NCBI RefSeq assembly: GCF_010729895.1
Contig: NZ_AP022612.1
Span: forward strand, 3,658,001 to 3,722,000
DNA length: 64,000 nucleotides
DNA from: Mycolicibacterium confluentis
GTDB lineage: Bacteria > Actinomycetota > Actinomycetes > Mycobacteriales > Mycobacteriaceae
Reading direction: 5' to 3'
Part shown: piece by piece, positions 44,604 through 63,427 of the stretch
How the letters are laid out: every line of letters begins with the position of its first letter
How positions within the stretch are numbered: the first letter of the stretch is position 1
Translations under genes and position numbers: made by a program
The notes under the pieces: generated by a model
What the model was told of the DNA's origin: nothing
Database searches by the model: none
The model's input: the letters and a program-made list of their open reading frames with translations, nothing else

Positions 44604-45140
44604 TCAAGAGTTCGCGATGTCTTCACAGAACTTCAGAACCGGCTGCAACAATTCTGCGATCTGTGCACCCACAGTCTCGAAGAAGTCCGCGTCCCTGCCA
44701 ATCGGATCCGGGACGTCGGGCACCCGCCCGGCGGCGAGCCGGGGCCGCATGGCCGCCATCTCCGACACGCTCGTCAATCGGTGATCCGATGCCAGGAGAG
44801 CCGCCTCCCCAAGACTGAAAGTCATACGAAGCCGCTGCGGTGCAAGCGCAAGCACCGCGTCCCTTTGCGTTCGCGTCATGGTCAGGATCAAGTCGGCGGC
44901 AGAGGCGATCTGCGGGCTGAGGCGGCGTGCAGCAAAGTTTGAGGCATTGCCGCCCAGGCTTTCTATAACCGGCACAGCGTGTCGATGAACAGGGTGTCCG
45001 ACCAGCGCCTGGACCCCCGCGCTCGACGCCGTGAAGTCCCGGATCCGGGCCTGCGCCGCACCAGCGGACGCCAGTCTTTCCGCGATGGGCGACCTGCATA
45101 TGTTTCCGGTGCAAACAAACAGTGTGTGCAGTGCGATCAT
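44604..45140 (-). CDS. Low-molecular-weight protein tyrosine phosphatase (Wzb type)
   Basis: The 178-residue protein has the phosphatase P-loop CTGNICRSP (Cys10, Arg16) at the N-terminus and the general-acid loop DVPDPIGRD near residue 148. This is the Wzb/PtpA family that dephosphorylates Wzc-type kinases and allows polymerisation to proceed. Its likely partner is the active kinase at 57.2-58.6 kb. It is divergent from the initiating transferase across 341 bases. M. tuberculosis PtpA is a relative, but the location argues for a role in locus 2. Confidence 0.88.
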   Translation of the reverse strand: MIALHTLFVCTGNICRSPIAERLASAGAAQARIRDFTASSAGVQALVGHPVHRHAVPVIESLGGNASNFAARRLSPQIASAADLILTMTRTQRDAVLALAPQRLRMTFSLGEAALLASDHRLTSVSEMAAMRPRLAAGRVPDVPDPIGRDADFFETVGAQIAELLQPVLKFCEDIANS

Positions 45141-45481
45141 CCTTTCAAAAGTGCTCTCACACGGGCTTATACCCGTTCAATCGTCCCACCGGGCCGATCG
45201 CGACGCCAGCTCCGCCGAAGTCGCTGGACCACCCAGCAAGCGCATGCGGGCAAAGAAACCCGAAATGAACGAGCGATTCTGAGCCGTGCCTGCAGCCAAC
45301 GCCCAACCTAGCCAAGAGCATTCACCGAGCGCTGCGGTGAGCCGCGCGCTCAAGCAGGTTCTGCTACGTTGCTCTGCAAACAGATTGCGGCGGCGCTAAT
45401 ATCCAGTCACCGGAGCTTCATCCGGAGCCGGACATATCGCCTCACTGGCGAAAGTGCCACGGCGGCTGCAGAGGAGGAACG
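45141..45481. promoter_or_regulatory. Divergent intergenic region at the start of locus 2
   Basis: This gap separates the phosphatase from the initiating transferase and probably holds both promoters. I see a TAATAT at 45399-45404 as a possible plus-strand -10 box but no well-spaced -35. No RNA gene or coding remnant is evident. Confidence 0.4.
45471..45477 (+). promoter_or_regulatory. Ribosome binding site deciding a TTG start
   Basis: GAGGAGG lies 4 bases before the TTG at 45482, almost a perfect match to the 16S tail. It makes TTG the probable start, since there is no ATG or GTG nearby in this frame that fits the protein. Confidence 0.7.
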
Positions 45482-46936
45482 TTGACCGAAGTCATCGGCG
45501 CACCAGTATCGACCGGCGACCACGGGCGCCTCGAAGCGGCCAACCCGAGCACCAACGGCAACACCACCGTCGAAGGTTCACTCCCGGATCACGGGCCCGC
45601 GCCTACGGGATTCCTCAGCCACATACGGGCCTGGATGGTTGTCCCCGTAGTCGATTTCGCCCTCATGGTGGCCCCGCTGCTCTGGCGCCCACCGCAGGTC
45701 AATTCGGTTCTGACGATGGCTGTGCTCGGTGTTCTCCTCCTCACTGGAGGCAGGCGTTACACCGCACGACTGCACCCCAGCCTTCTCGATGAACTGCCCT
45801 CCATCATCGGCAGACTGCTGGTCTCTGTGGCTGCGGTTGCGGCGATCATCCTCCAGCTTCACCAGAAGACCGCGGTGCTCATCTTTCTCGAGACCGCCTG
45901 CCAATCCGTGGCGCTGGTGATCCTCGGCCGCATCGTCACCACTCGTCTGATCGCGGTGGCCCGGAAGCGCGGTATCGCCCAGCATGGGACAGTGCTCATC
46001 GGCAGCGGGCCGGTGGCAGCCGAGCTCGCGCGAATTCTGTCGGAGCACCGAGAGTACGGACTCCGATTGATCGGCTTCGTCGATGACAACAATCCCCATG
46101 CTCTCCAAGGGATCCCGCGGTTGGGACGCCTCTCCGACCTCGACGTCGCCGTGCTGGCGACGGGTGCAGACCACGTGCTGATCGCCGACGGAAATTTCAA
46201 CGAGCAGTCCCTCATGGACGCGGTACGGACACCGACCTGCCACAACGTTGAGTTGCTCATCGTCCCGCGCCTTCACCACTTCCACATGCTCACCGGAATC
46301 GCCGACCACATCGGATCCATCCCGATCATGAGAATTCGCAATCCCAAGCTCCACGGCCCGACACGAGCGATCAAACGCGCCTTCGACATCTTGGTGGCGG
46401 TGACTGCGCTTGTCCTTCTCTCGCCGGTCCTCGCCGTCACCGCGCTCGCGGTTCGGATTGAGGGCGGCCCGGGTGTCATCTTCCGCCAGGTGCGAGTCGG
46501 TCGCGGCGGCAGGCATTTCGACGTGTTGAAGTTCCGTTCCATGCGTCCCGCCAACGAAAACGAGTCACAGACGCAGTGGAGCGTGGCAGGAGACAATCGG
46601 GTCGGTCCTGTCGGGCGCTTCCTCCGTGCCACCTCCATCGACGAACTGCCCCAGCTCTGGAACATCCTTCGAGGCGATATGACGCTGGTCGGTCCCAGGC
46701 CTGAACGCCCACACTTCGTGGAGCAGTTCTCGAACCAATATGACGGGTACGCCCACCGCCACCGCGTCCATGTCGGGCTGACCGGCCTGGCCCAAGTCAG
46801 CGGACTCCGCGGAGACACGTCCATCGCCGACCGGGCTCGATACGACAATTTCTACATCGAGAACTGGTCACTGTGGCTCGACATCAAGATCATTCTTCGG
46901 ACATTCCGCGAGGTGCTCTTTTATAAGGGGCGCTGA
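45482..46936 (+). CDS. Polyprenyl-phosphate sugar-1-phosphate transferase (initiating enzyme of locus 2)
   Basis: The 484-residue protein has four or five N-terminal membrane segments, a middle nucleotide-binding-like domain (GTVLIGSGPVAAELARIL and GFVDDNNPHALQG), one more membrane helix (KRAFDILVAVTALVLLSPVLAV), and the catalytic domain FRQVRVGRGGRHFDVLKFRSMR, TSIDELPQLWNILRGDMTLVGPRPERPHFVEQF, VGLTGLAQVSGLRGDTS. It should load the first sugar phosphate on the polyprenyl carrier for locus 2. The TTG start is set by the GAGGAGG site. Confidence 0.9.
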   Translation: MTEVIGAPVSTGDHGRLEAANPSTNGNTTVEGSLPDHGPAPTGFLSHIRAWMVVPVVDFALMVAPLLWRPPQVNSVLTMAVLGVLLLTGGRRYTARLHPSLLDELPSIIGRLLVSVAAVAAIILQLHQKTAVLIFLETACQSVALVILGRIVTTRLIAVARKRGIAQHGTVLIGSGPVAAELARILSEHREYGLRLIGFVDDNNPHALQGIPRLGRLSDLDVAVLATGADHVLIADGNFNEQSLMDAVRTPTCHNVELLIVPRLHHFHMLTGIADHIGSIPIMRIRNPKLHGPTRAIKRAFDILVAVTALVLLSPVLAVTALAVRIEGGPGVIFRQVRVGRGGRHFDVLKFRSMRPANENESQTQWSVAGDNRVGPVGRFLRATSIDELPQLWNILRGDMTLVGPRPERPHFVEQFSNQYDGYAHRHRVHVGLTGLAQVSGLRGDTSIADRARYDNFYIENWSLWLDIKIILRTFREVLFYKGR

Positions 46937-47066
46937 GCATCTCGGCGGGCGGGCCCGCCACGCAGCCCCCGTTGGCCACCTCAACCAGATGTGCGTTGAG
47001 CTCTGCGCCCCACCCCGGTCCCAGCCAGGACCGCATTCAGACCCAGCTCGCCGACGGGATCCCCTT

Positions 47067-48881
47067 GTGTCCTTGAACACCACGCTACGCGCCGCCGCAC
47101 GCCTCACCCCTCGAATGGCCGCCCATCAGACCAAGCGTCTGACGAGGAACAGAGCCGTGCGGAAGTTCCCCGACCACTACGACGGGATCGTCCGTCGCAC
47201 CGCCGGCCGCCTACCGCTGCCCTCCTCGTCGGATCGGATGCCGGCGGATCTCGCGTCCTTCATCGGATGCTTCTACCAGCACACCGATCAGGAAGTGCGT
47301 GACGCGGGGCACGGACGGTTCACCCTCTTGGGCCGAACGGTGGACTTCGAGTCGATCGCCGCGATCGACTGGACCTACGAGCTGCCCGAAGAGAATGACC
47401 ACCATCTGTGGCGAATGAAACTGTGCCAGTTGGAAGTCCTGCATTCGCTGCTGGCGGACGCGGAGCCCGCCGGCCATCGGACGGCACTCGCCCTGCTGAA
47501 CAGCTTCTCGGATGCACGGTCTTTCGCAGCACCCGATGTCTTCTCGGTGGGATGGTCCCCATATGGCGCCTCCCACCGGTTGCTCGCCATGCTCAGCGGT
47601 CTGTCGGTCGGCCTGGCCGCGGGCAGCCTGGATCCCGGGACACGGTCAGAAGTTGAGGAGTCCGCGCGACTCGACGCCGGATTCCTCTGGCACAACATCG
47701 AACACGATCTTCGGAACAACCACACTGAGCGGAACCTGGCCGCGCTGTGCCTCTACCATCTGGCCGCGGGTTCGATATCCGACTCCCGCGCCGCGCGGCT
47801 TGACCGTGACGTGCACCGCATCATCGAAGCCACCGTCCTCCCCGACGGCATGCAGATTGAACGATCCGCGATGTACCAGGGATTGACCGTGATGTCCCTG
47901 GAGATCTTCGCGGCCTGCCCGTTCCTGTCCCCAGCCACGAGGACTTTGGCGCAGGAACGTGCCACCGCCGCTGCGGGCGCTTGGCTCTTTCTGACTCATC
48001 GCGACGGCGACATCGCGCTCTTCAACGACAGTTGGATCGGCGAGGTTCCGCCGCCCGCAACAATTCTGCGCACTGACCGCGTGTCAGTTCCGGACTCCCT
48101 GCCGGACGCCGGCTACTTCCGACTGAGTTCTGGACCGATCGATGCGCTCATGGATGCCGGTGAGATCGGACCGCGATGGAACCCCGGCCACGGACACGCT
48201 GATTTCCTCGCGGTCGAGGTCGATGTGGACGGTCACCGATTCATCGTCGACCCGGGAACTTCCCAGTACTCCACTGGACCCCAACGTATGTACGAACGCT
48301 CTGCGGCCGGTCACAACGGCCCTCGATATCTCGACGTTGAACCTGTGGAGTACTCCGGCTGTTTCAAGGTCGGCAAGCTCGCCTCCGCTGCGCCGATTGC
48401 GGCGACGGTGCTGGAAGATCTACCGACTGAGAGCATCGGCGGAACGATCACGACACCCGCCGGACTCTGCATACGCGTGATCTGCGCCCTCAACGGTGGC
48501 CTGCTCATCGTGGACAGGTGGAACTCATCGGACACACCCGGTGCGACAACACTTCTCATCCCGAACGACTGGCGCCTCGACACCGACCGGAGGCGGACTG
48601 TGCGCGCCGCGCAGGAAGGTGCGCAGACCGCGATCACCGTCTACGAAGGTGCAATCGACGGCATCGAGGAGAGAACGTGGAGTCGTCGATACCTGCAGCC
48701 CGAGCAGGCCACCGCAGTGACACTGGCGCCGACCCGCGTCCCCAGCGGGGGCCAGATGCTGGTGTTCAGTGTCGGCGTCGGCGTCTTCGATGACGTGCCT
48801 GCGATCCGCGCACGCGTGGAAGCACTTCTCCGTGCACACGGGGGCCACGAAGCCTCCGTGAGGGTGGATCCACCATGCTGA
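47067..48881 (+). CDS. Heparinase II/III family protein
   Basis: The 604-residue protein has an N-terminal alpha-toroid-like region and a C-terminal heparinase II/III domain with GHGHADFLAVEVDVDGHRFIVDPGTSQYSTG and RSAAGHNGPRYLDVEPVEYSG, the conserved region of this family. Members cleave uronic-acid polymers by beta-elimination (heparin, alginate). No signal peptide is evident, so it may act in the cytoplasm or be exported by another route. The start is uncertain: GTG 47067 was chosen; ATG 46989 would add 26 residues. It shares a transcript with its neighbours. Confidence 0.82.
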   Translation: MSLNTTLRAAARLTPRMAAHQTKRLTRNRAVRKFPDHYDGIVRRTAGRLPLPSSSDRMPADLASFIGCFYQHTDQEVRDAGHGRFTLLGRTVDFESIAAIDWTYELPEENDHHLWRMKLCQLEVLHSLLADAEPAGHRTALALLNSFSDARSFAAPDVFSVGWSPYGASHRLLAMLSGLSVGLAAGSLDPGTRSEVEESARLDAGFLWHNIEHDLRNNHTERNLAALCLYHLAAGSISDSRAARLDRDVHRIIEATVLPDGMQIERSAMYQGLTVMSLEIFAACPFLSPATRTLAQERATAAAGAWLFLTHRDGDIALFNDSWIGEVPPPATILRTDRVSVPDSLPDAGYFRLSSGPIDALMDAGEIGPRWNPGHGHADFLAVEVDVDGHRFIVDPGTSQYSTGPQRMYERSAAGHNGPRYLDVEPVEYSGCFKVGKLASAAPIAATVLEDLPTESIGGTITTPAGLCIRVICALNGGLLIVDRWNSSDTPGATTLLIPNDWRLDTDRRRTVRAAQEGAQTAITVYEGAIDGIEERTWSRRYLQPEQATAVTLAPTRVPSGGQMLVFSVGVGVFDDVPAIRARVEALLRAHGGHEASVRVDPPC

Positions 48882-49903
48882 AGAACCAGAAGGATGCGTC
48901 CATCGAGACGCTGCGTGGGCTGGCCTGCATATTGCTTGTGGCATTTCATGTCATCGGCGAGAACCGGCATGGTGGCCTGCACGTCCCGGATGACTCGACC
49001 TTTCGATGGTATGCAGACTCGTTTGCCTACCTGCGAATGCCCCTGTTCACCTTCATATCCGGTTACGTCTACGCCTTACGTCCGCTGACCGTGCTCGGAA
49101 ACTGGCCCCGGTTCCTCCGTGGAAAGGCCCGCCGACTGCTTCTGCCGATGTTTGTCATCGGCACGCTCCTCGCCGTCCTACAGACCTATGCCCCGGGGGT
49201 GAATGAGCCCTTCAGGACGCCCTGGTACCTGTGGCACATTGTCCCGGTATCGCCGTTCTGGTTCATCTGGGCCATCTTCTGGGTGTTCTTCCTGGTCACA
49301 CTCATCGACACCGTCGCCGATCCGCGCAGGCGGACGATGCTGCTCGTGGGAGCAGCTCTCACAATGGCATTGGCGAACGTGCTGGTTCCCGCGACGCAGT
49401 GGGACATCATGGGGTTGCGGTCGGCTCTGTATCTCGGCCCCTTCTTCATCGCCGGCCTGCTGGCCTCACGGTTCGCCTGGCGGGAGGCTCCCCTCGCGTT
49501 ACGGGCTTCCGTCGTCGTCGCCCTGGTGCCGCTTCTCGCGATCACCCAACTCGGAGTTCTTGGCGTCATCCCCTTTCTTCCGCCCCGTGCATCGTTGATT
49601 GCCACCCTCACGGGAATCGTCGGTTGCCTGGCGCTTCTGCTGTTGCGATGGAGTTGGAAGCCATTGGCGTTCATAGGCGCCTACTCCTTCACCATCTATC
49701 TTTTCCACGTCCCGTCCGCAGTCGGAACGCGGGTTCTCCTGAAGCACGCGGGGATCGACGATCTTCGGCTTCTGTTCATCGCCGGAACGCTCGTCGGCAT
49801 CGCCGTGCCCATCGTCATCGAGATCCAGGCCAAGAGGAACCGCTGGACAAGTCTCTTTCTGCTCGGCCAACGCAAGCGCTCTCCCGCAGTACAGAAGCAG
49901 TGA
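48875..49903 (+). CDS. Acyltransferase family 3 membrane protein
   Basis: The 342-residue protein has about ten membrane segments and the family signatures SIETLRGLACILLVAFHV (with the catalytic-region His) and RMPLFTFISGYVYAL near residue 60, with a basic loop RFLRGKARRLLLP. Such proteins move acyl groups, usually acetyl, onto extracytoplasmic sugars. It overlaps the heparinase-like gene by 7 bases and ends the plus-strand operon. Together with the SGNH lipoprotein at 51 kb it may form an acetylation pair. Confidence 0.87.
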   Translation: MLKNQKDASIETLRGLACILLVAFHVIGENRHGGLHVPDDSTFRWYADSFAYLRMPLFTFISGYVYALRPLTVLGNWPRFLRGKARRLLLPMFVIGTLLAVLQTYAPGVNEPFRTPWYLWHIVPVSPFWFIWAIFWVFFLVTLIDTVADPRRRTMLLVGAALTMALANVLVPATQWDIMGLRSALYLGPFFIAGLLASRFAWREAPLALRASVVVALVPLLAITQLGVLGVIPFLPPRASLIATLTGIVGCLALLLLRWSWKPLAFIGAYSFTIYLFHVPSAVGTRVLLKHAGIDDLRLLFIAGTLVGIAVPIVIEIQAKRNRWTSLFLLGQRKRSPAVQKQ

Positions 49904-49937
49904 CCCACGGTCCGACTCAGAAGCCGGCGGGCCTGCT

Positions 49938-50999
49938 TCACGTCACATCGGGCACCGAGCGCGGAGCCTCGATGCGCGCCCGCAGACTGTCGGTCCCCCA
50001 TTCCGGGTTGGCGATGTACACGACGTCGGTGTCCGGCCGGTTCGTCGTGTACAGGCCCCAATGGGGGTATCCGAGAACAGTGCGACCCGATCCGTCCGCG
50101 AGGTCGTCGTAATATCCGATCGGAGTGTCGATTTCGACGACATGTTCGCCATTGATCCAGGCGTTCAGGTGACCGTCCTCACCGAAGGTCGCCTGCAGCG
50201 TGACATAGGTCTTCTCGCCTTCCGCAGGAACATCACCGGAAAAATGCGTGACCGACCTGCCGTTCTCCGATGATTGTGATTCTCGAGCCTTCTGGCCGTA
50301 CAGGCGCGAAGACGAACACGTCCGGATCGTCAAACGAGAATGCGAGACATCCATGAAGAGCACCGGTGTCCGGCCGATGTCACGATCGACACTGTGCCAC
50401 TGGTGAACGATTCCGCGGCCGGCATCTGCCAGACCCGGTGTGTCTCCCAGCACCAGACAGAACGAGCTCCACACCGTCTCCTCGCCGATGCCGTCCCGCT
50501 GACGCGCGACGATCTCGCTGCGCCGGCTTCCACTTTCAGAGTCGTACGGACCAGCGAAATCATCGGCCCGCACCTCGAAGCGGAAGACGTCCGAGTTCGG
50601 CAACGTCAGTGATGCCGGTCGGCCCGCCTGCCGCATCACCTTGCCGTCAACCCCGAGAAGGAATGCCCCATCGGCCCTGACGTAGTCATCGCGCGCGACA
50701 GCCTCCAACTTCCAGGTCGTGAGGACGTCGGAAACTACTGCGTATGCGGGGTCTCTCAACACCGCAACCGGCAGTGCGTACCTGCCGTCGTTCAGCAGAG
50801 CGGGAGTCGGGCACACACCCGCGGAGGAGCCGCAGACCAGGGAACGGACATTCACAGCCTCGTCTTGGGGGCCCACGAGCATGGTGACGCCAGAGGGCTC
50901 TGCGTGTGACACGCCGTTCTTCGGCAGCAGGACGGAACCACCGGCAAGGGCTGCCGCACCGACAGCGGCGTGCCTGAGGAACCGCCTGCGGTCGGTCAT
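49938..50999 (-). CDS. Heparin-lyase-I-like polysaccharide lyase, Tat-exported
   Basis: The 353-residue protein has a Tat signal (RRRFLRHAAVGAAALAGGS, about residues 4-22) and a beta-jelly-roll-type domain like the heparin lyase I family: FRFEVRADDF, SGSRRSEIV, VWSSFCLVLGDTPG, HQWHSVDRD, VTLQATFGEDGHLNAWINGEHVVEIDTPIGYYDD and YPHWGLYTTN. The family normally cuts uronic-acid glycosaminoglycans. The ATG at 50999 has an AGGGAGC ribosome binding site. It is the last gene of the long minus-strand operon of locus 2. Confidence 0.75.
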   Translation of the reverse strand: MTDRRRFLRHAAVGAAALAGGSVLLPKNGVSHAEPSGVTMLVGPQDEAVNVRSLVCGSSAGVCPTPALLNDGRYALPVAVLRDPAYAVVSDVLTTWKLEAVARDDYVRADGAFLLGVDGKVMRQAGRPASLTLPNSDVFRFEVRADDFAGPYDSESGSRRSEIVARQRDGIGEETVWSSFCLVLGDTPGLADAGRGIVHQWHSVDRDIGRTPVLFMDVSHSRLTIRTCSSSRLYGQKARESQSSENGRSVTHFSGDVPAEGEKTYVTLQATFGEDGHLNAWINGEHVVEIDTPIGYYDDLADGSGRTVLGYPHWGLYTTNRPDTDVVYIANPEWGTDSLRARIEAPRSVPDVT

Positions 51000-51074
51000 G
51001 AGCTGCTCCCTGCGCGAACTGCCTCGGCGTTCCGTTCCCATCGGCGATAACGGGCTTCCACAACCCTTTTCACA

Positions 51075-51854
51075 CTACGACGCACGAGGCGCGGTGAGCA
51101 TCTCCTGGATCACCGGAGCAATCCTCTGAGCCATGTACGCGTGGCCCTCATCGGTGGGATGCACTCCATCGGCCCCGATGAGATCCTGCCGGTCGAGAAA
51201 CCAGTTGTCCGTCAGCGGGTCGAGGAATCGTGCATTGAGGTCCTCTGCCCGATCTCGAATGATGTCGCGCGCACGGACGAGGGAGTGAGGTGTCTCTGGA
51301 AACTCCCCCATCGGACCGATCACGAGTAACTGTGCTCCTGGAGCGGCGACCTCAGCTTCTCTCAGCGCATCACAGGTGGCATGAGCCAACTCGCCCTCGA
51401 GCGCACCGGAGTCGTTGCGAGAGCCGAAGAACACCACAAGCCGATCATCCGGCTTCACCGTCGACTCGATCTTGTCCGCGAAGACACCGCCACGGTTGCC
51501 CTGGCTCACATACCCGCTGCCGCCCTCGGCACCGAAGTTGATCACGACATCCACACCGCGCGCACGCAACTCCCGCTCGACGACCGCCGTCCAACGATGG
51601 GTTCCCGTCCCGCCCTCCGGGCTCCCATTCGTCAAAGAGTCGCCGATGACGGAGACGCGCTGTGACGAACTCGAGGCCTCAATTGACGGCAGGATTGGCC
51701 GGCTTGGTGGAATGCACGTGTAGGGCTGGTATCTGGCGGCCACGTCGGCTTCGGGGTGCGCTGTCGCGCACCCGCTGAGAACGCCGATGCACGCTGCCAT
51801 CACCGCGCACCACCGCATGGCCGCGCCCGAGCGACCTCTAGTCCTGCGCACCAC
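51075..51854 (-). CDS. SGNH/GDSL hydrolase lipoprotein
   Basis: The 259-residue precursor has a basic n-region (RRTRGRSGAAMR), a hydrophobic stretch and a lipobox (VLSGC), so it should be a lipoprotein outside the membrane. The SGNH domain has VSVIGDSLTNGSP, FFGSRNDSG and GADGVHPTDEGHAYMA, all catalytic blocks intact. It probably removes or transfers acyl groups on the polymer. The GTG at 51854 has GAAGGTGGGG just before it; an upstream ATG (51956) would put the signal peptide far inside the protein. It overlaps the end of the Wzy-like gene by 17 bases. Confidence 0.82.
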   Translation of the reverse strand: MVRRTRGRSGAAMRWCAVMAACIGVLSGCATAHPEADVAARYQPYTCIPPSRPILPSIEASSSSQRVSVIGDSLTNGSPEGGTGTHRWTAVVERELRARGVDVVINFGAEGGSGYVSQGNRGGVFADKIESTVKPDDRLVVFFGSRNDSGALEGELAHATCDALREAEVAAPGAQLLVIGPMGEFPETPHSLVRARDIIRDRAEDLNARFLDPLTDNWFLDRQDLIGADGVHPTDEGHAYMAQRIAPVIQEMLTAPRAS

Positions 51855-53226
51855 GGACCCCACCTTCTTGGTGGCGCAACCCACGCGCGATCGGGACGAG
51901 TCGAGCCGATACGGGTTGTGCAGCGTCGACGGATTCATCGCCGACAGGTCGTCCACTGATGAAATGGGGACTCATCATAATTCCAATCATCAACCAGAAT
52001 GGTGGCCAGCCGGCCGGAAAGCTGTTGAACCACGCAACGAACAGCATCGCAACGGCGATTGGCTTCCACGGAATTCGCGACCGGAGGGCGAAGACTGCCA
52101 GCGCCACAAGGTAGATCACCCCGATGATCCCGAAGTCGAGCATGAAGACCGCGAACTGGGAGACCGGTGAATTGCTGAGGCCGGCCGGCACCTCATAGGC
52201 GTAGTAACCCTGCAGGCCCAACAGATTGCCCACCGAATGCCGGTGGTACACCGCGGTCGCCTCGTTGACAAACGCTCCAGCACCGTAGCCCGCCAGGTTG
52301 GAGTCGAGAAGCCCGAAGAGCCCGACCAGGCTGTGCGCGACACGGTACGACACCGTGGTGTCCATCAACTCGCTCGGAGACTGGATTGCCGTGCTGAGGA
52401 GGTCGATTCCTCGTACTCCGCTGGAAGTCAACGAGTCGAGCACGAGGATCACAGGTCCTGCGATCACCGCTGTGGTGAAGATCCGGCCGAGCACACCGAA
52501 CCTGGCCGACGGTTTGAACACGAGATAGAGAACACCCACGAGCGCGAGGGCGAGATAGCCAGATCCGGACTGCGACAACAGCGTCGCGGCGACCGCGACA
52601 AGAAGTGGCCACCTCTCGACCCGTTCCCCCTCCTCACGAAGACGGCGCCGCGCGATCATGCACAACACGAGCATGAACACCATGGTGAAACCGAAGTCGG
52701 TCGCTTCCGGGGCCAGGCTCGACGATCCGCGCGCGGCAGAGCGCACCACGGTCGGCACCAAGGGCGCCACGACGGAGAAGTACGCGTCCTCGCTGACGTA
52801 ACGCATCACGGCGAATGCCAGCCAGAGCGGCAGCGTCAGCTTGAGTGCGCGCCACAACCCGGACGGTGTCAGATACTGGCAGGCCAGAAAGATCCCGGCG
52901 CTCAACAGAAATGCGGCTGACCGCCGGAAGTAGGTCTGCAGATCGAAACCCTCGCCGCCGTACACGTCGAGCATGAACCAGACGGCGAAGACAAGGAGCA
53001 GCCACTGCATTCCGGTGATGCGCAGCCCGGTGGTCAAGGCCTTGAACGCGACCCACAACCACGCCAGCAGCGCCGCCCACGGTTGCACTTGCGACGGAGC
53101 CGACAGCGGGCCGAAATTGAGGTACGGCAACAGGCACAGCGCCACCACGATGACCAGCGACGTGCCGGACGACAGCGTGGTGTGCGGCTGCTTCGTCACC
53201 CTCGGACGACCTGTAGTTGATGTCAC
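51838..53226 (-). CDS. O-antigen polymerase/ligase-like protein (Wzy of locus 2)
   Basis: The 462-residue protein has about 11 membrane segments and an extracytoplasmic loop near residues 270-345 (LTSSGVRGIDLLSTAIQSPSELMDT and YRVAHSLVGLFGLLDSNLAGYGAGAFVNEA). The repeat of Gly and Arg residues in this loop is typical of Wzy proteins. It should polymerise the repeat units exported by the adjacent flippase, which starts 10 bases upstream on the same strand. Length control is expected from the Wzc-type protein in the same operon. Confidence 0.83.
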   Translation of the reverse strand: MTSTTGRPRVTKQPHTTLSSGTSLVIVVALCLLPYLNFGPLSAPSQVQPWAALLAWLWVAFKALTTGLRITGMQWLLLVFAVWFMLDVYGGEGFDLQTYFRRSAAFLLSAGIFLACQYLTPSGLWRALKLTLPLWLAFAVMRYVSEDAYFSVVAPLVPTVVRSAARGSSSLAPEATDFGFTMVFMLVLCMIARRRLREEGERVERWPLLVAVAATLLSQSGSGYLALALVGVLYLVFKPSARFGVLGRIFTTAVIAGPVILVLDSLTSSGVRGIDLLSTAIQSPSELMDTTVSYRVAHSLVGLFGLLDSNLAGYGAGAFVNEATAVYHRHSVGNLLGLQGYYAYEVPAGLSNSPVSQFAVFMLDFGIIGVIYLVALAVFALRSRIPWKPIAVAMLFVAWFNSFPAGWPPFWLMIGIMMSPHFISGRPVGDESVDAAQPVSARLVPIARGLRHQEGGVRGAQD

Positions 53227-53236
53227 TCGTCTGTCC

Positions 53237-54514
53237 TCAGCCGGCCTGCTCAGCGAGGGCGCGGCGCGTCAGCAGGCCCGAGACGGTCGGGTGCAGCCAG
53301 ATTCCCCACTTCCATCGGACTACGGCGATCATGGCGCCGAAGACCGCCAGTGTGTAGCCGACCTGCACCCAGGCCATCACGATCACACCGTGCCGTGCCG
53401 CCACCAACAGCGCGACGAGCATCACCGGCAGCATGGTGCAGAAGATCGTCAGCACCCAGTTCTCGTGACCGGTCATCTTCAGCACCTCGTCGACAGGACC
53501 GGCGAATGCTTCGATCGCGACGGCTACCAGCAGAATCGTCAACAGCGTTGCGGCGGCGGCGAAGTCGTGGCCGAAGGTCACTTCGATGAGCTGTCGACCG
53601 AACAGGGCGCTGGCCACCAGCGCCGCTCCGGCAATACCCAACGTGATCGTGGCCAGGCGCCCGCAGATGGACTTGATCGCCCCGCGATCCCCCTGCTCCG
53701 CAGCCCGCACAATCGTTGGCCGAATGGCGAAACGGACCGCGGCCGTGACCGCACCGACAGCGACAGCCAGCCTCCCCGCCGTTCCCAGGTAACCGGCCTG
53801 GGCTGGCGCCACCACGACGCCGGCGATGAAGGTGGGCAACCAGAGGCCGAGTCCGTACAGGGCGCGGGCGGTCGACAGGCGGATTCCCACCCGAATCATC
53901 CGGCGAATCGTGTCGAACGTGGGCCATCTGGGCCGGGCTCGACGCAGCACCATCGCGAGCGGAAGTGCCGCGACAAGAAGTGATGCCACGGATGTCGCGA
54001 CAGCCACACCGCCGAAGGTGGGGTGGCTGACGAAGATCACGTACGGAATTGCGCTGAGCGCCAGACTGACGTTGACGGCCGGATAGAAGAAGAAGGCGCC
54101 CATGCCCTGGAACCCGCACCCAAGCAGAAGCTGGGCACCGTTGAACATCAGGCCGTTGGCGATGAAGAACGCCACCATGAATGCGACCACGGTGACCGTG
54201 ACACCGCTCGGCATCAACCACACCAACAATCCGCCCAGCACTGCGATGACCACGGCATTTCCCACCGCCACCGAGACCGTGGCCCCGACCAGCGGAGCGG
54301 CCGGGCGGAGGTCCCCCCGGTGCACCACCTTCGGCGCATCGCGGACGAATGTCTCCGAAACCCCCAGTCCCAACAGGGAGTAGGTGGGCAGGACAGCACT
54401 GAGGACCAACATGTACCGGCCGTAGTCGTCCGTGTCCAGGTGCCGTGCGAGCACCAGCAGGATGACGAACTGCAGCGCGATCCCGCTGTACCGCAGGACC
54501 ACCGTCACCAACAT
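53237..54514 (-). CDS. Polysaccharide flippase, Wzx/MOP superfamily (locus 2)
   Basis: The 425-residue protein has about 12-14 membrane segments and the N-terminal signature RYSGIALQFVILLVLARHLDTDDYGRYMLVLSAVLP of MOP-type exporters. GRLAVAVGAVTAAVRFAIRPTIVRAA follows in the middle. It should flip the lipid-linked repeat unit of locus 2. It is between the GT4 and Wzy genes on the same strand (spacings 18 and 10 bases). Confidence 0.87.
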   Translation of the reverse strand: MLVTVVLRYSGIALQFVILLVLARHLDTDDYGRYMLVLSAVLPTYSLLGLGVSETFVRDAPKVVHRGDLRPAAPLVGATVSVAVGNAVVIAVLGGLLVWLMPSGVTVTVVAFMVAFFIANGLMFNGAQLLLGCGFQGMGAFFFYPAVNVSLALSAIPYVIFVSHPTFGGVAVATSVASLLVAALPLAMVLRRARPRWPTFDTIRRMIRVGIRLSTARALYGLGLWLPTFIAGVVVAPAQAGYLGTAGRLAVAVGAVTAAVRFAIRPTIVRAAEQGDRGAIKSICGRLATITLGIAGAALVASALFGRQLIEVTFGHDFAAAATLLTILLVAVAIEAFAGPVDEVLKMTGHENWVLTIFCTMLPVMLVALLVAARHGVIVMAWVQVGYTLAVFGAMIAVVRWKWGIWLHPTVSGLLTRRALAEQAG

Positions 54515-54532
54515 CGTGGACTCACCGTCGGC

Positions 54533-55846
54533 TCAGTCGGCATGGTTGCTGACGCCAAGCGGGCGCTTCTTCGCACTCAGCGCACCATGGAACTCGTCCT
54601 CGAGGTCCAGGAAGTGTTTCTCCCAGGTCCAGTTCGCCAGCACGTAATCGCGGGCGGAGGTGCCAAGGTCTGTGGCGGTTGCGGGTTCCTCGAGGAGGCG
54701 GATCACCGCGGTGGCGAATGCCTCTGGCTCATCCTCGACGATCAACGCTTCGCGCGGTGCACGAATGCCCTCGTTCGCGATGGAGGAGGCGACGACGGCC
54801 TTGCCCGAGGCCATGTACTCAATCAGCTTGTTCTGCATACCCCCTGCTGCAAGCATCGGATTGACACACACTTGCGCGGAGCGGATGAGCACTCCCACAT
54901 CGGGAACGGTTCCTGTCACCCAGATGCCGTCGCGTCCGTCGAGTTCGAGTATCGACGCCGCGGGGTCACGGCCCTGGATGACGAAGGCGGCGTCAGGATG
55001 CGCTGCCCGCACTGCGGGCCACACGTTCTCCACGAACCACAGCACCGCCTGCACGTTGGGCGGGTACAGCATGGACCCCGAGAAGATGACTCTGCCCGGC
55101 ACGACGTCCTTCTGCTCAGCCTGAACGAACTTGTCCGTGTCGGTCCCATGGGCGCCATAAATCCAGTTGTCGATCTCCGGCTGACCATGCACCCGGCACT
55201 GTTCCCTGACCGCCTCGACATCGGCCGGCCCGATCAACACGGTCTTGTCGAAGTCCTTCCAGACACGTGATTCGTAACGGCTCATCAGCACCGTCTCAAG
55301 CCGGTACACCATCCTTTTGAGTCCGCTGCGCTCATTGCGCGCCATCCGCTTCGTATTCAGCGTCTGCGAAAGCTGCAACGCCAGAAACGAAACCGTGCTC
55401 GGCGTCGACCGGATCGAACGGGGGACGGCCGGCGCGGTGCGCGGGTAGTAGCAGTAGACGACGTCGTACTCCCCCGCCGCAACGGAGGCTGCCAACTCAC
55501 GACGAAGCTTCGTATTGCGGAAGATGCTCACCTGAAGCGGCAGCAGCGACAGGATTCCGAGTACGAGACCCAGCAGCTTTGCCGCCCAGGACTGCTCATA
55601 GATCCGCACTGTTCGACAGTTGCGTTGCAGCCAACTGCTCTGTTCGCCAGTCAGGTCGCCGTCGACCGCGAGCGTGTACAGATCGACAGAATGGCCACGG
55701 GCAGCAAGGAAGCTGAGCAGGTGCGCGACTGTCATCTGGTCCCCGCGCATCATCGGGAACGGCAGTCGGCTGTACACCACGGCGATCCGAAGAGGTTCGG
55801 GCGACGCCGCGCACTTCATCAACCGCGGTAGCTGCACCTCATCCAC
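54533..55846 (-). CDS. Glycosyltransferase family 4 (locus 2)
   Basis: The 437-residue GT-B protein has RIAVVYSRLPFPMMRGDQMTVAHLLSFLAARGH, VVYCYYPRTAP, the donor-domain start VIFSGSMLYPPN and NPMLAAGGMQNKLIEYMASGKAVVASSIANEGI, like the C-terminal domain of 'GT4_1/GT_1_4' enzymes. It is the only clear nucleotide-sugar glycosyltransferase of locus 2 besides the initiating enzyme. The GTG at 55846 is preceded by AGAGGAG about 8 bases away, which decides the start over ATG 55909. Confidence 0.85.
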   Translation of the reverse strand: MDEVQLPRLMKCAASPEPLRIAVVYSRLPFPMMRGDQMTVAHLLSFLAARGHSVDLYTLAVDGDLTGEQSSWLQRNCRTVRIYEQSWAAKLLGLVLGILSLLPLQVSIFRNTKLRRELAASVAAGEYDVVYCYYPRTAPAVPRSIRSTPSTVSFLALQLSQTLNTKRMARNERSGLKRMVYRLETVLMSRYESRVWKDFDKTVLIGPADVEAVREQCRVHGQPEIDNWIYGAHGTDTDKFVQAEQKDVVPGRVIFSGSMLYPPNVQAVLWFVENVWPAVRAAHPDAAFVIQGRDPAASILELDGRDGIWVTGTVPDVGVLIRSAQVCVNPMLAAGGMQNKLIEYMASGKAVVASSIANEGIRAPREALIVEDEPEAFATAVIRLLEEPATATDLGTSARDYVLANWTWEKHFLDLEDEFHGALSAKKRPLGVSNHAD

Positions 55847-55880
55847 GCCGTCTTCTCCTCTCGGATTTCCGGACACGGCT

Positions 55881-57140
55881 TCAGGCCAGCCGGTTGATGT
55901 CGACGACACGAACCGCGGTGATCGTGTATCTGCCAGCGCAACTGCGGGTATCGATCACCAGGTCCCACGCAGTGTTCTCGACGACCTCCTGGCCGATCAG
56001 CAACTGCCGGATGAAGGGTGAGTTCGACAGCACGCCCAGGTTCTGCCCCATCAGATTCTGGGGCTCGATGTGCGGATCGAAGATCGAAAGCTGGTACCCG
56101 GCCGTGATCAGCATGCGGGCCAGATCCACGTTCGGGCTCTCCCGCAGATCATCGCTGTCGTTCTTGAAAGCGATGCCCAACAGAAGAACCCGGGCACCGT
56201 GTGCGAGTCCGGAAGTCACATGTTCATACAGGAAGTTCTTGTGTGACTCATTGGAGGCAAGCAACGAATCGATGAGGTGCGTGAACCCACCGCTGGTGCG
56301 GGAGATGTGCTGGAGCGCGCGCACATCCTTGGGCAGACACGATCCACCGAACGCACCGCCGGGCCGCAGATAGGTCGGGGAGACGTTCAGCTTCGTGTCC
56401 GACACGAAGATCTTGTGCACTTCCGTGGCGCTGATCCCCAACTTGGCGCACACTCGACCGACTTCGTTGGCGAAAACCGTCTTCACCGCGTGGAAGGTGT
56501 TGTCGACGAACTTGGTGATCTCGCTTTCGCGGTAACGCACGTAGAACACCGGGGCATTCAGGTCAGCGTTGATCTTGTCCAGGGTCGGACAGGCGTCGCC
56601 ATCATGAGTGCCCACCACAATCTTCGGCGGCGAAAAGTAGTCTTCGACTGCGGTGGACTCCCTGAGGAACTCGGGGTAATACACCAACTCGACACGTTCG
56701 ACCTCGTCTCCAAGCACCCCGTCGAAGATCGGCTTGATCAGCTCGTCCATGGTGCCTGGACGCACCGTCGACCGATACGCGACCGTGGGGGCACAGTGCG
56801 GAACTGTCTTGATCACCTCAGCGAGCTGCCGCGAGACCTCCGCGATGAAGGTCATGTTGTGCGAGCCGTCCACCGCACTCGGCGTACCGACGCACACGAT
56901 GATCAGATCGGAGTCGACGACGTCGGAGGTCACCGACGCGGTGGCCGTGATCAGTTCCATGCGGCGAGCTTCGGCGATCATGTCACCGATGCCGGGCTCG
57001 GTGATCGGTGAGCGGCCCGAAAGGACTGCGTCGACTTTCGTCATATTCGGGTCCACACCGATGACCTCATGACCTTGGCTGGCCAGACACGCCATCGCGG
57101 TGATACCGACATACCCGAGGCCTAGAACGGCGATCTTCAT
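55881..57140 (-). CDS. Nucleotide-sugar 6-dehydrogenase, AlgD-like (GDP-mannose or UDP-glucose)
   Basis: These NAD enzymes oxidise the C6 of a nucleotide sugar to a uronic acid. The 419-residue protein has the Rossmann start MKIAVLGLGYVG, VCVGTPS, RSTVRPGT, PEFLRESTAVEDY, and the active-site GGSCLPKDVRAL with the catalytic Cys. GGSCLPKDVRAL and the overall pattern are closer to GDP-mannose dehydrogenase AlgD than to UDP-glucose dehydrogenases, which usually have GGSCFPKD. GDP-mannuronate is therefore the likely product, but UDP-glucuronate cannot be excluded. TAGGAG precedes the ATG by 6 bases. Confidence 0.85.
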   Translation of the reverse strand: MKIAVLGLGYVGITAMACLASQGHEVIGVDPNMTKVDAVLSGRSPITEPGIGDMIAEARRMELITATASVTSDVVDSDLIIVCVGTPSAVDGSHNMTFIAEVSRQLAEVIKTVPHCAPTVAYRSTVRPGTMDELIKPIFDGVLGDEVERVELVYYPEFLRESTAVEDYFSPPKIVVGTHDGDACPTLDKINADLNAPVFYVRYRESEITKFVDNTFHAVKTVFANEVGRVCAKLGISATEVHKIFVSDTKLNVSPTYLRPGGAFGGSCLPKDVRALQHISRTSGGFTHLIDSLLASNESHKNFLYEHVTSGLAHGARVLLLGIAFKNDSDDLRESPNVDLARMLITAGYQLSIFDPHIEPQNLMGQNLGVLSNSPFIRQLLIGQEVVENTAWDLVIDTRSCAGRYTITAVRVVDINRLA

Positions 57141-57243
57141 GTGTACTCCTAACAGTCGCGGTTTGGCGGATGTATGGGCTCGGCCTCACGCCGTTGTTCG
57201 GCTCGACGTCGATGCGGCTTGTGATCTCGGACTCCCCACTCAC

Positions 57244-58635
57244 TCAGGCGGTGTCAGGCTCGCGCTCCAGTTCGGGCGCACTGTCGGCCCCGTAGTAGCT
57301 GTAGTTGTATCCATAGGGGCCGGCCGCCTTGGCTGGGACGAGCGTGAACACCACGCCCATCGGCTCGCGGCCGACGTCGGCCAGGGTCTGCACTGAGTGC
57401 GCCAACTGGTCACGCTTTGTGGATCCGAACCGCACGACCATGAACGCGCCGTCCGCGGCCGCCGACAGGATCGCGGCGTCGGTCACGGCGAGCAGCGGCG
57501 CGGAGTCGACGATGACGAAATCGAAGTCGGTCCGCAGTTCGTCGAGCAGCGCTTGTGCAGCCCGCGATCCGAGCAGCTCGCTGGGGTTCGGGGGGCGGAC
57601 GCCCGCCGCGAGGACGGTCAGGCCGTCGAAGCTCGTCGGCTGCAGCGCATCTGCCAGCGACGTTCCACCGCTGAGGACCGTGCTGAATCCCACAGTCCCG
57701 ACCAGCTCCAGGTACTTGTGGATTGCGGGACGTCTCAGGTCACCGTCCACGAGCGCGACTCGGTTTCCAGCCTCGGCCAGCGCCAGCGCGAGGTTGATCG
57801 CCGTGGTGGACTTCCCCTCGCCGGGAACAGAACTCGTGATGACGATCACGCGCGGTGGGTTATCGACCGACAGGAACTGCAGGTTGGTGCGAAGCGCGCG
57901 GAAGGACTCCGCGATCGGTGAGTGATCGCGACCGAACGAAATCGCCGGTTCGGTCCGCCTCTTCTTGTCCAGTGGAATACTGCCGACCACGCCGACGCCG
58001 GCGCTGTCTTCGACGTTCTCGCGTGTCTTGATGGTGTTGTCGAGGACTTCACGCAGAACCGCCGCAGCGATGCCCAGCAGTACGCCGAGGCCCAACCCGA
58101 ACGCGAGAACCTGCTTGGTTCTGGGCACCACCGGACGTTCGGGCACCGCGGCCCTCTGCTCCACGATCACGCGGGCGTTCGGCGGCCCCCCGTTCGTGGG
58201 GGACTCCAATTCGGAGACCATGGCCACGAATTCATTCGACAAGGCGTTGGCGATGTCACGGGCCCGCACGGGTGACTGGTCGCGGACCTGGACGTTGATC
58301 AACACGGTGCCGGACTTCGCCTTGGCCTTGACGTTCTCGCGCAGTGCCGCCGCGTCCATGTCGAGACCGAGTTTGTCGATAGTGCGCTGGGCCAGCGTCT
58401 GCCCCATGATCAGTTCGGTGTACGACATCACGCGGTCCTGCGAAAGCCGGTTGCCCTGGTAGAGATCAGAGTTCGACAATCCCGTGGACGTCGACACGAA
58501 CAATCTGGTCGTTGCCTGGTAGATGGGTGTAGTCGTCAGAATGATGATGACAGCCGTCAGAACGCCGATGAGAGCCACCGAACACACTGTGATCCACCGC
58601 ATTCGGACCACTTTGAGAAAATATTCAAGAGTCAT
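57244..58635 (-). CDS. Polysaccharide co-polymerase and tyrosine autokinase (Wzc type)
   Basis: The 463-residue protein joins a Wzz domain (membrane segments at about 15-36 and 177-196) to an active-looking BY-kinase domain. Walker A is SSVPGEGKSTT (268-278) and Walker A' is VALVDGDLRRP (293-303); VIVDSAPLL follows. The C-terminus has a tyrosine cluster (YGYNYSYYG) for autophosphorylation. Cycles of phosphorylation and dephosphorylation by the Wzb-type phosphatase at 44.6 kb would control polymer length. It contrasts with the degenerate kinase in locus 1. Confidence 0.93.
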   Translation of the reverse strand: MTLEYFLKVVRMRWITVCSVALIGVLTAVIIILTTTPIYQATTRLFVSTSTGLSNSDLYQGNRLSQDRVMSYTELIMGQTLAQRTIDKLGLDMDAAALRENVKAKAKSGTVLINVQVRDQSPVRARDIANALSNEFVAMVSELESPTNGGPPNARVIVEQRAAVPERPVVPRTKQVLAFGLGLGVLLGIAAAVLREVLDNTIKTRENVEDSAGVGVVGSIPLDKKRRTEPAISFGRDHSPIAESFRALRTNLQFLSVDNPPRVIVITSSVPGEGKSTTAINLALALAEAGNRVALVDGDLRRPAIHKYLELVGTVGFSTVLSGGTSLADALQPTSFDGLTVLAAGVRPPNPSELLGSRAAQALLDELRTDFDFVIVDSAPLLAVTDAAILSAAADGAFMVVRFGSTKRDQLAHSVQTLADVGREPMGVVFTLVPAKAAGPYGYNYSYYGADSAPELEREPDTA

Positions 58636-58767
58636 CGGTCAACGACCTCTCCACTTAATCTGTTGGGCATCACTTCTCAGGCTGACCGGTGCCGCATAAT
58701 TGACGGCAACGCCCGAATCGCCTGCCACCCAACACCACAACTACGTTTCCGACCGTCGGGATCCGAG

Positions 58768-60633
58768 TTATCGCGAACATTCTGGAACGGAAATTCTTGG
58801 GGAGACTTCATCAACCAGTGGTTGAACCGGTACTCGCGGCGATCCCGCTGCTGTCGGCTCGGACAGTCGGAACTGGAGTTCGCCTGACTGGTTCGGCGGA
58901 ATCGCGACCTGGACTTCAAATCCGGGATGCCCACGCTCCGAGCTCGTGAGAACCGGCGTCCTGTCTCCGTTTGCCGTGGCGCCCACGAGTTCGGCACCCT
59001 GAGTCGCAAGCAGGCGCACAGAGGTCAGCATGGTCCCATTTGGGAGTGTGACAGGAATGTCCTGCCGAAGCCCCATGGATCCGGCGACGTACTCCGGAAG
59101 AGAGGGGTTCTCGCCCAGGGTATTCGTGAGACGCACGGTGACGGTGGACATCCTGGTGTCGCCCACACACTGATCGGCGACGTATTCGATATCGCGCGTC
59201 AGGTGGTAATCGAGCTTGTTGCCGGCCAGGTTGTTGACAATCACCTCGGCATACGGCGCGGCATCGTCCGGGACGATGTGGGCCAGCGGAGTCTTCTCCA
59301 GCAGCGTCTGATCCTCCGCGTCAGCACTCCAGACGGCGATACGACCCTCGCTGACTGCCCGCCCCAGCGCGTCAAGCAACTTCCGCGGAGACTCCACCGG
59401 CTTGGACATCTTCTTCACCACTTCGTTGGCGATGTCCTGCAGATAGCGCTTGCGTGCGGTCTGATCGTCGGGGAATCGCTGGTAGGCAGTCGATTCCGTC
59501 AGTTCCACGACATTGTCCTTGGTGATCTTCTCCCCGTCCGGCATGGTGATGGAGCCGACGGCGCCCAAGATGTAGCTCAGGGCAACGGGGTCGATCGCGA
59601 CGACGCCGTCCACGGTCATACCGGTCTGCTGCTTCCACATCGACCGCCAGATCTGGGCGGCGTAGGGGAAGTGAGAACTCTGGTTGCTGTTGCGGAAGTC
59701 CGTCGTCGGGTTGGTGAACCCGTACTGCTCGTTGTATTCGGGACCGAGGTCGATGGGAGTGAACGGTTTGTCGAGTTCCGTGTTGGCGCCCAGGTCATCG
59801 ACGGTGAACCTGCCGTCATTGAATCGCAGGACACCGAATCCACCGAGCAGTCCGCCTGTCCCGCGGGCCTCGGCATTGGTCTGAAATCCCATGAAGTAGG
59901 TGCGCGGCCCGTCGGCCCCCATCATCGAGGGCGCCAGTTGGGCGGCCAGAGCGGTGTTTTCGAGCATCTCAGCCACGTCTGACGTCTGGTCCTGCAGCGC
60001 CGCGCGTGCATCACCGACCGGCCCCAGGTACGCGGGCTCAGATATTGCTGCGGCGTCCATATCCAGTCGGGCCGCACTGTCGGCGATCGCACTCAGTGCG
60101 GGTTGCTTGGCGCGAAGGACTCCCACGTCCAGGCGTCCGTCTTGGAACAGGCTGTTCGGTGACATCACCGTTCCCACCTGCGCGGCGGGTTTCAGCACGT
60201 CAGCAGCCAAGTTCAGCACGACGTCAGAGATCTCCTGAGTCGTCTTGAGCGGACTGCCGAGCCATGGCACGGACGCGGCAACGTTCCACGGCAACGAGTG
60301 CGCAGCACTGCGCGCGGCCGAGGCTTGCGCATAGGTGCGCTCGGCGGCCTCCACAGCGGCGTCGGTGTCACCCTGCATCAGCGCTTCTTTCACCTGCTGT
60401 GCACCGCTGCGGGCGTGCTCGAGCGCGGATTTGGCCTCGACAGCGCGGATTCCCAGCCAGCAGACAAAACCGGTGGAGACCAGCACCGTCGCCAACGCGG
60501 CGATTCTCACCTCGCGGCGCTGCCACAATCCTGCGCCCTCGTCCGTGTCACGGACGGCGTCATCTGCTCCGTCCGCATCATGCCCGGACGGGCGTCGTGA
60601 AAAGATATGCACGAGAAGGCTTTCCAATTGCAT
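58768..60633 (-). CDS. DUF4012 domain protein, membrane-anchored
   Basis: The 621-residue protein has a short cytoplasmic N-terminus, one membrane segment at about 45-63 (IAALATVLVSTGFVCWLGI), a helical region, and a large extracytoplasmic DUF4012 domain with NAEARGTGGLLGGFGVLRFNDGRFTVDDLG and GVVAIDPVALSYILGAVGSI. DUF4012 proteins are often in actinobacterial exopolysaccharide loci; their activity is not known. It heads the 60.6-49.9 kb minus-strand operon just before the Wzc-like gene. A role in polymer attachment or length control is inference. Confidence 0.85.
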   Translation of the reverse strand: MQLESLLVHIFSRRPSGHDADGADDAVRDTDEGAGLWQRREVRIAALATVLVSTGFVCWLGIRAVEAKSALEHARSGAQQVKEALMQGDTDAAVEAAERTYAQASAARSAAHSLPWNVAASVPWLGSPLKTTQEISDVVLNLAADVLKPAAQVGTVMSPNSLFQDGRLDVGVLRAKQPALSAIADSAARLDMDAAAISEPAYLGPVGDARAALQDQTSDVAEMLENTALAAQLAPSMMGADGPRTYFMGFQTNAEARGTGGLLGGFGVLRFNDGRFTVDDLGANTELDKPFTPIDLGPEYNEQYGFTNPTTDFRNSNQSSHFPYAAQIWRSMWKQQTGMTVDGVVAIDPVALSYILGAVGSITMPDGEKITKDNVVELTESTAYQRFPDDQTARKRYLQDIANEVVKKMSKPVESPRKLLDALGRAVSEGRIAVWSADAEDQTLLEKTPLAHIVPDDAAPYAEVIVNNLAGNKLDYHLTRDIEYVADQCVGDTRMSTVTVRLTNTLGENPSLPEYVAGSMGLRQDIPVTLPNGTMLTSVRLLATQGAELVGATANGDRTPVLTSSERGHPGFEVQVAIPPNQSGELQFRLSEPTAAGSPRVPVQPLVDEVSPRISVPECSR

Positions 60634-60721: not shown

Positions 60722-61117
60722 CTAGCAGCCCCTGCCCACCGAGACTGTCACCGTCCCGTACGGGCCGACCTTCACGCCGGCGCCCAGGAAGCAGACCTGG
60801 AAGTTCCAGTTCGCGGTCCACTGCTTCCACGCGTCCTCAAGGAACCCGGGAATCAGTGCCAGCGGACGAAACTCCAGCAGCACAATGTGTTTCGGCGGAG
60901 TGGGATTCGCCTGGCCAACCCACCACCAGTTGAAATCCTGCGCGAAGCCCGCATCCAGAACCTGGGTCACGGGGGCCAGGGGGGCCGGCACCGCGACATC
61001 GGCTTGCGCGGCGACCGCTGGCGTGAACATCGCGGCTGCGGCAACCGCCGCCGCCCCTGCTCCCACCTGAAACTTCGTTGTCACAGAGGGCAGTTTTCCA
61101 GCAACTGCAGAAGACAT
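60722..61117 (-). CDS. Small secreted protein of unknown function
   Basis: The 131-residue precursor has a long Ala-rich signal region (FQVGAGAAAVAAAAMFTPAVAAQA, cleavage after about residue 40), and a mature part rich in aromatic residues (FNWWWVGQANPTPP) and ending in a Cys (SVGRGC) that could pair with the Cys in FQVCFLG. I do not recognise the family with certainty, but similar small secreted proteins occur in mycobacteria. AAAGGGGTG precedes the ATG at 61117, which decides the start over 61150. It lies 88 bases from the DUF4012 gene, same strand. Confidence 0.65.
   Translation of the reverse strand: MSSAVAGKLPSVTTKFQVGAGAAAVAAAAMFTPAVAAQADVAVPAPLAPVTQVLDAGFAQDFNWWWVGQANPTPPKHIVLLEFRPLALIPGFLEDAWKQWTANWNFQVCFLGAGVKVGPYGTVTVSVGRGC

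Positions 61118-63427
<2,310 letters not shown>

Follow-up and report, generated by a model that had tools for sequence, protein, structure and literature searches.

Does an environmental mycobacterium carry the genes for a uronic-acid capsule, and if so, which uronate would it contain and what would the enzymes encoded with it do? The question is raised by a locus at 44604–60633 of a stretch of 64,000 nucleotides from Mycolicibacterium confluentis (positions 3658001–3722000 of a 5.88 Mb single-contig genome, NZ_AP022612.1), hereafter the window. In our reading, to which we give a probability of about 60%, the locus is a Wzx/Wzy-dependent module, mobile by horizontal transfer, for a capsule or exopolysaccharide (EPS); it would make an acidic, mannuronate-bearing polymer with a very short repeat, with the enzyme roles proposed below. 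That the product is a uronic-acid polymer, as a preliminary description made from the letters alone had suggested, is likely given the AlgD-like dehydrogenase and two lyase families that co-occur with it in the genus.

The nature of the uronate is addressed by the nucleoside diphosphate (NDP)-sugar dehydrogenase. In a sequence search of solved structures in the Protein Data Bank (PDB), its best match was Pseudomonas aeruginosa AlgD (289 bits), followed by a UDP-glucose dehydrogenase (UGD) at 188 bits. It is 40% identical to P. aeruginosa AlgD, 27–34% identical to the rows labelled UGD and 39% identical to an AlgD-like Martelella enzyme, whose gene is followed by one for a GT2 protein that we take to be Alg8-like. 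The loop ahead of the catalytic cysteine, KLNxSxxYLRPG..FGGSCLPKDVRAL, is common to the locus dehydrogenase and AlgD, whereas in those UGD rows where a motif search could locate it, the loop reads RIGxxFLxxGxGYGGSCFPKD or nearly so. In a 34-row tree (two duplicate rows removed), the locus dehydrogenases group with two Sphingobium enzymes in a single clade (98/100), on a branch apart from the UGDs. UGD as the best identity was rejected on the PDB bit scores, the identities and loop, and the tree. The AlgD-like label given earlier thus stands, and the enzyme is most likely AlgD-like, with GDP-mannose as its predicted substrate. Given the best solved match and the AlgD loop, mannuronic acid is more likely than the glucuronate of glycosaminoglycans; of the alginate- or glycosaminoglycan-like capsule first envisaged, the mannuronate part is favoured and the glycosaminoglycan part less likely. 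A search of the locus proteins gave no alginate synthase.

The uronate might instead be glucuronate, or another, made by a divergent UDP-sugar dehydrogenase, and the polymer glucuronan- or glycosaminoglycan-like. Dehydrogenases of this family act on many substrates, the locus enzyme shares just about 40% identity with AlgD and falls in a clade of its own, and many of the proteins with a fold like that of the locus heparinase II/III-like protein work on glucuronic acid (GlcA) or iduronic acid glycans. A GlcA-bearing acidic EPS is also known from Rhodococcus (PMC12786566). The AlgD loop and AlgD as the best solved match speak against this alternative, as does the genome's only other dehydrogenase above the family cut-off (L084), which groups with the UGDs in the tree. 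We regard glucuronate as unlikely, though not negligibly so. Weighing against the mannuronate reading, the tree does not put the clade among its three AlgD rows (a solved enzyme and two that we labelled from loop and neighbours), nor does it fix the fork at which the two would join.

Do the two lyase families belong with this dehydrogenase? Of 396 genomes from the genus, 16 carry the AlgD type, counted at E 1e-120 or better. The heparinase II/III protein (E 1e-40 or better) was found in 11, 10 of which have the AlgD type (Fisher test, 4e-15), and the PF14099 lyase in 10, eight of them with the AlgD type (4e-11). Wzc matches (E 1e-60 or better) occur in 139 genomes, a count that may include paralogues; among these, the AlgD type accompanies the heparinase in 10 of 11 and the PF14099 lyase in six of seven. 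The 11 heparinase genomes, counting a split gene in one relative (G009), come from 34 that match at E 1e-3; the remaining 23 have short matches, and loci were fetched for 19 of them. For PF14099, 11 genomes matched, and one (G129, a fragment with a stop) was removed. The exception with a heparinase and no AlgD type is Mycobacterium aurum (G341, LT549889.1), which has, at another site in its genome, a more distant dehydrogenase (46%) next to a heparinase II/III protein of a different kind. In two further genomes (G105 and G325), the PF14099 gene directly adjoins the AlgD gene, and a heparinase match was not found. Several points weigh against this association: the Fisher tests ignore shared ancestry and physical linkage, the E-value thresholds were chosen after the lists had been seen, and 4 of the 16 AlgD genomes (G164, G222, G229 and G374) carry neither lyase. 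No other lyase family was found in the seven proteins scanned from these lyase-less loci.

Another heparinase II/III-like family, whose members are about 730 amino acids long, was present in all 19 fetched loci (L005 and L015–L032; 23 genomes have such matches). With flanks of only 1.5 kb, it directly adjoins an AlgD-like dehydrogenase (64–81% identical to that of M. aurum) in 11 of the 19. The M. aurum member (in L111:9233-16067) matches PF16889 and lies near a two-domain zinc-binding/GFO-IDH oxidoreductase.

By which route would the polymer be made? Gene families were called with Pfam and NCBIfam, and the locus reads as follows (window coordinates, strand).

44604–45140, minus: Wzb-type low-molecular-weight protein-tyrosine phosphatase (PF01451, 86 bits; CX5R, as CTGNICRS, and DPIG motifs)
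45482–46936, plus: initiating polyprenyl-phosphate hexose-1-phosphate transferase (PHPT, Bac_transf; PF02397, 225 bits; TIGR03025 above and TIGR03023 below cut-off)
46989–48881, plus: heparinase II/III-like protein (PF07940, 74 bits, cut-off 24; conserved start probably GTG at 47067)
48875–49903, plus: membrane O-acyltransferase (Acyl_transf_3, PF01757, 123 bits; seven hydrophobic segments)
49938–51041, minus: PF14099 polysaccharide lyase with a twin-arginine (Tat) signal (PF14099, 41 bits, cut-off 30; TAT_signal_seq in NCBIfam)
51075–51956, minus: SGNH/GDSL esterase-like lipoprotein (PF13472, 67 bits; GDSL motif; start probably near 51818, lipobox LSGC)
51838–53226, minus: Wzy-like polymerase (PF04932, 19.7 bits, under the 31.7-bit cut-off; 52% identical to the equally placed Sphingobium protein)
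53237–54514, minus: Wzx-like flippase (about 11 hydrophobic segments; position; 46% identical to the equally placed Sphingobium protein)
54533–55909, minus: GT4 glycosyltransferase (PF13692, 92 bits; 58% identical to the Sphingobium homologue)
55881–57140, minus: AlgD-like NDP-sugar dehydrogenase, GDP-mannose 6-dehydrogenase type (all three UDPG_MGDP_dh domains)
57244–58635, minus: Wzc-type co-polymerase and bacterial tyrosine kinase (Wzz, AAA_31; TIGR01007 above cut-off; Walker A and Tyr-rich tail)
58768–60633, minus: DUF4012 protein (PF13196, 162 bits)
60722–61150, minus: small conserved open reading frame (ORF) at the locus end (several relatives have stretches of 33–70% identity to it near DUF4012)

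The genes named in the preliminary description are thus present, with Wzx and Wzy as the weaker calls, based on hydrophobic segments, place and homologues. Against these two names, neither Pfam nor NCBIfam gave a match for the Wzx protein, and the Wzy protein falls under its family cut-off. The Wzc/Wzb pair, described as active, has its kinase and phosphatase motifs. The O-acyltransferase, the SGNH lipoprotein and DUF4012 had not been listed. Besides the PHPT, the GT4 is the sole glycosyltransferase found in the locus. Among the locus proteins, which were the only ones searched, Pfam gave no GT2 or PilZ match, and thus no Alg8/Alg44 synthase. A Wzx/Wzy route with one GT4 would give a heteropolymer with a short repeat.

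A decayed or silent locus, making no polymer, seems very improbable. One relative (G009) does have its heparinase gene and its dehydrogenase in two pieces, and the acyltransferase is broken in a second one (G120), but all genes in the window are open frames with their motifs kept, and the heparinase gene is free of internal stops in five of the six close relatives examined. The gene set is not a chance assembly, as its members recur jointly in other genomes.

The locus is flanked by a PH-domain gene (43451–43969) and an ORF at 61802–63427, which we take to be AccD5 from mycobacterial gene order; homologues of this ORF are 90–93% identical, and an ORF overlapping its end matches ACC_epsilon. 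In four relatives (L039, L077, L080 and L082), DUF4012 and Wzc lie beside the AccD5 homologue with differing gene content inside, so that the interior of the mycobacterial locus varies like a serotype locus. DUF4012 is present in 10 of 16 tabulated mycobacterial relatives; some regions end before the whole locus, and a missing entry in this table is not proof of absence. The small ORF next to it, seen in L040, L071 and L078 as well, has no Pfam match and is duplicated in some relatives. A second polysaccharide locus lies at 16418–38748 of the window, with its own PHPT, WecG-type, GT2 and GT4 transferases, a GDP-mannose dehydratase, and asparagine-synthase-like and NAD-synthase-like genes.

Has the module moved? 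A scan of genome contigs gave 25 loci with the heparinase-like gene. Proteobacteria account for 17 of them, with two from a single Novosphingobium strain, mycobacteria for seven and Agromyces for one. In Sphingobium sp. CECT 9361, genes for PHPT, AlgD-like dehydrogenase (55% identical to that of the window), GT4 (58%), Wzx (46%), Wzy (52%), acyltransferase, outer membrane polysaccharide export (OPX) protein and Wzc run in one direction, and a heparinase-like gene (52%) lies downstream of wzc. The order AlgD–GT4–Wzx–Wzy is common to this locus and the window. While the window Wzx is 46% identical to that of Sphingobium, it is only 28–31% identical to those of four mycobacterial loci with a heparinase of the ~30% type. 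Across Mycobacteriales, the AlgD type (E 1e-100 or better) was found in only 2 of 298 genomes from 76 genera, namely the window's own and one further genome of the same genus. The shared gene order, the closer Sphingobium Wzx and the rarity of this AlgD type suggest that the module moved between phyla.

The proteobacterial loci also count against the mannuronate reading. A GFO/IDH oxidoreductase lies near the heparinase-like gene in 12 of the 17 (L050–L058 and L062–L064; oxidoreductases 63–84% identical to that of L050), with AlgD mostly absent nearby. Among eight proteobacterial genomes tested, a close AlgD was found in Sphingobium only, the best dehydrogenase of the other seven being at most 39% identical to that of the window. 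Given these GFO/IDH partners and the lack of a close AlgD, the heparinase-like protein is not tied to mannuronate alone. An aldo/keto reductase is found near the gene in nine of the 17 loci, some of which are short, and Wzx and Wzy are recognisably window-like in three, Sphingobium included. A further close AlgD-like gene (57%) of Sphingobium sp. CECT 9361 lies on another contig (L109), near genes for export-protein-like and Wzc-like proteins and with no heparinase-like match within 20 kb.

What, then, would the heparinase II/III-like protein do? It has the PF07940 domain and the (alpha/alpha)-toroid plus beta-sheet fold of its superfamily: the AlphaFold2 model (predicted local distance difference test, pLDDT, 90) matches PL12/PL17 lyases and dermatan sulfate (DS) epimerase 1. 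The predicted catalytic residues N217-H218, Y269 and H374 are invariant in all 23 rows of the heparinase-like alignment, which omits kin fetched by the genome search and three split genes (L048, L059 and L069); the catalytic residues of the protein are thus intact. The Asn-His pair and the Tyr line up with residues that are catalytic in HepC, the His only in a weak second alignment segment.

A hydropathy screen found neither an export signal nor a hydrophobic N-terminus in this protein. Counted from the conserved start, its best 17-residue hydropathy mean is 0.09; within the first 90 residues of the frame, it is 0.36. In 22 homologues from two phyla, the mean is at most 1.11 from the chosen starts, reaching 1.48 upstream in one, and 20 of the 22 are low over the whole reading frame too. 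It follows that, of the two lyases said to remodel the capsule, only the Tat-signalled PF14099 protein fits that role. For the heparinase II/III-like protein, a cytoplasmic site is probable, where it would work on the lipid-linked repeat and its uronate rather than on the finished capsule. Several points count against a cytoplasmic site: export was judged by hydropathy alone, from starts that we chose and without a signal-peptide predictor; in two of the 22 homologues (L058 and L066), the chosen start is preceded by a hydrophobic stretch; and a third (L067) has a Tat-like string, although without a hydrophobic run.

The heparinase II/III-like protein could alternatively be a degradative lyase that acts on exported polymer, for turnover or chain release, and leaves the cell without a recognisable signal. 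Its intact catalytic residues would suit this, and P. aeruginosa HepP, of the same superfamily, is reported to cleave heparin (PMC5732420). Such a role is possible but doubtful, given the non-hydrophobic N-terminus and the low hydropathy of the homologues from the conserved start, and given that the adjoining PF14099 lyase is already Tat-signalled. Moreover, a heparinase II/III-like gene of Vibrio vulnificus YJ016 is required for its capsule (PMC6037467), which fits a synthetic role and would not be predicted for a purely degradative enzyme.

Of the two lyase-family proteins, the PF14099 one alone carries an export signal. Conserved RRSE, QWH and YPHWGLY motifs are present in it; such R/E, QxH and Tyr motifs are catalytic in related lyases. 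Heparin-lyase-I-like, the name first given to it, proved too narrow and was dropped, as PF14099 alone is supported; against PDB sequences there was no meaningful match, whether to heparin lyase I (PL13), to glucuronan lyase (PL20) or to others, the one chance match being a ribosome factor (E 0.53). A structure model built from three alignment rows was unusable (pLDDT 36), a point against our overall reading.

A more specific proposal, which we hold only tentatively and consider improbable, is that members of this heparinase II/III-like subfamily serve in the cytoplasm as uronyl C5-epimerases of lipid-linked repeats and are the bacterial equivalent of DS-epimerase. In that case, a mannuronate/guluronate, alginate-like polymer would be made through Wzx/Wzy, without an alginate synthase, by both the mycobacterial loci and that of Sphingobium. 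The recurrent pairing with a dehydrogenase (of the AlgD-like kind here and the GFO/IDH kind in other Proteobacteria) would mean that the two enzymes jointly tailor a sugar before its export. The authors of the DS-epimerase structure suggest that minute active-site changes may convert a lyase into an epimerase (PMC8006597). Human DS-epimerase 1 (6hzn, same paper) matches the heparinase-like protein in fold, but at 13% identity, and is a Golgi enzyme acting on GlcA, whereas epimerisation by the locus protein is a candidate role. Archaeal Agl32 is a C5-epimerase acting on a lipid-linked glycan, but its structure and active site are described by its authors as different (PMC13308652); by analogy, it would offer a precedent for the lipid-linked epimerisation step only.

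In the mechanism that we propose for a mannuronate polymer, the PHPT would put hexose-phosphate onto the lipid carrier, the AlgD-like enzyme would provide GDP-mannuronic acid, and the GT4 would transfer the mannuronic acid (ManA). Since the locus has a single GT4 and a single PHPT, the repeat would at its simplest be a hexose–ManA disaccharide, which the acyltransferase could O-acylate and the heparinase II/III-like protein could edit in the cytoplasm, as lyase or C5-epimerase on the lipid-linked uronate. Wzx would then flip the repeat and Wzy polymerise it, while Wzc/Wzb and DUF4012 may control chain length or export. Outside the cell, the Tat-exported PF14099 lyase may trim or cut the finished polymer, whose acyl groups are probably adjusted by the SGNH lipoprotein. 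That this polymer would form a capsule is itself our inference.

The known mycobacterial capsules have been described as alpha-glucan, arabinomannan and mannan. No mycobacterial Wzx/Wzy capsule locus was found in the open-access literature, among the matches listed. A locus of this kind would add a surface-polymer class to mycobacteria. Linking two lyase families to one dehydrogenase makes a direct, testable substrate prediction, and the locus offers a route to the role of heparinase II/III-like proteins in bacterial capsule loci. The idea of such a capsule has a precedent: from the heparinase II/III-like capsule gene of V. vulnificus YJ016, a heparosan/alginate-like capsule was already proposed (PMC6037467).

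How does the locus compare with known systems? With Wzx/Wzy-dependent capsule loci it has in common the PHPT, a glycosyltransferase, Wzx-like and Wzy-like proteins and Wzc/Wzb; it differs in its mycobacterial host, DUF4012, two uronate-lyase families and a single glycosyltransferase besides the PHPT. Alginate biosynthesis uses the dehydrogenase AlgD, the lyase AlgL and the epimerase AlgG. The locus resembles it in an AlgD-like dehydrogenase, a lyase and possibly an epimerase encoded with the synthesis genes, and O-acylation, but not in its Wzx/Wzy route, the lack of Alg8/Alg44 among the locus proteins and lyases of other families. As in V. vulnificus YJ016 (VV0357/VV0358), a heparinase II/III-like protein is part of a capsule pathway. 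That bacterium belongs to another phylum, the partner there is a putative membrane dehydrogenase, and the gene there was shown to be needed for capsule (PMC6037467), a role for which the gene here is only a candidate. Pairing of a heparinase II/III-like protein with a dehydrogenase is also seen in zbdP-hepP of P. aeruginosa PA14, likened here by description rather than sequence, where the dehydrogenase is zinc-binding and heparin cleavage is reported (PMC5732420). Finally, guluronic and mannuronic acids have been reported in the EPS of an acetate-grown Rhodococcus strain (cited in PMC12786566), so that such a polymer would not be unheard of in related actinomycetes.

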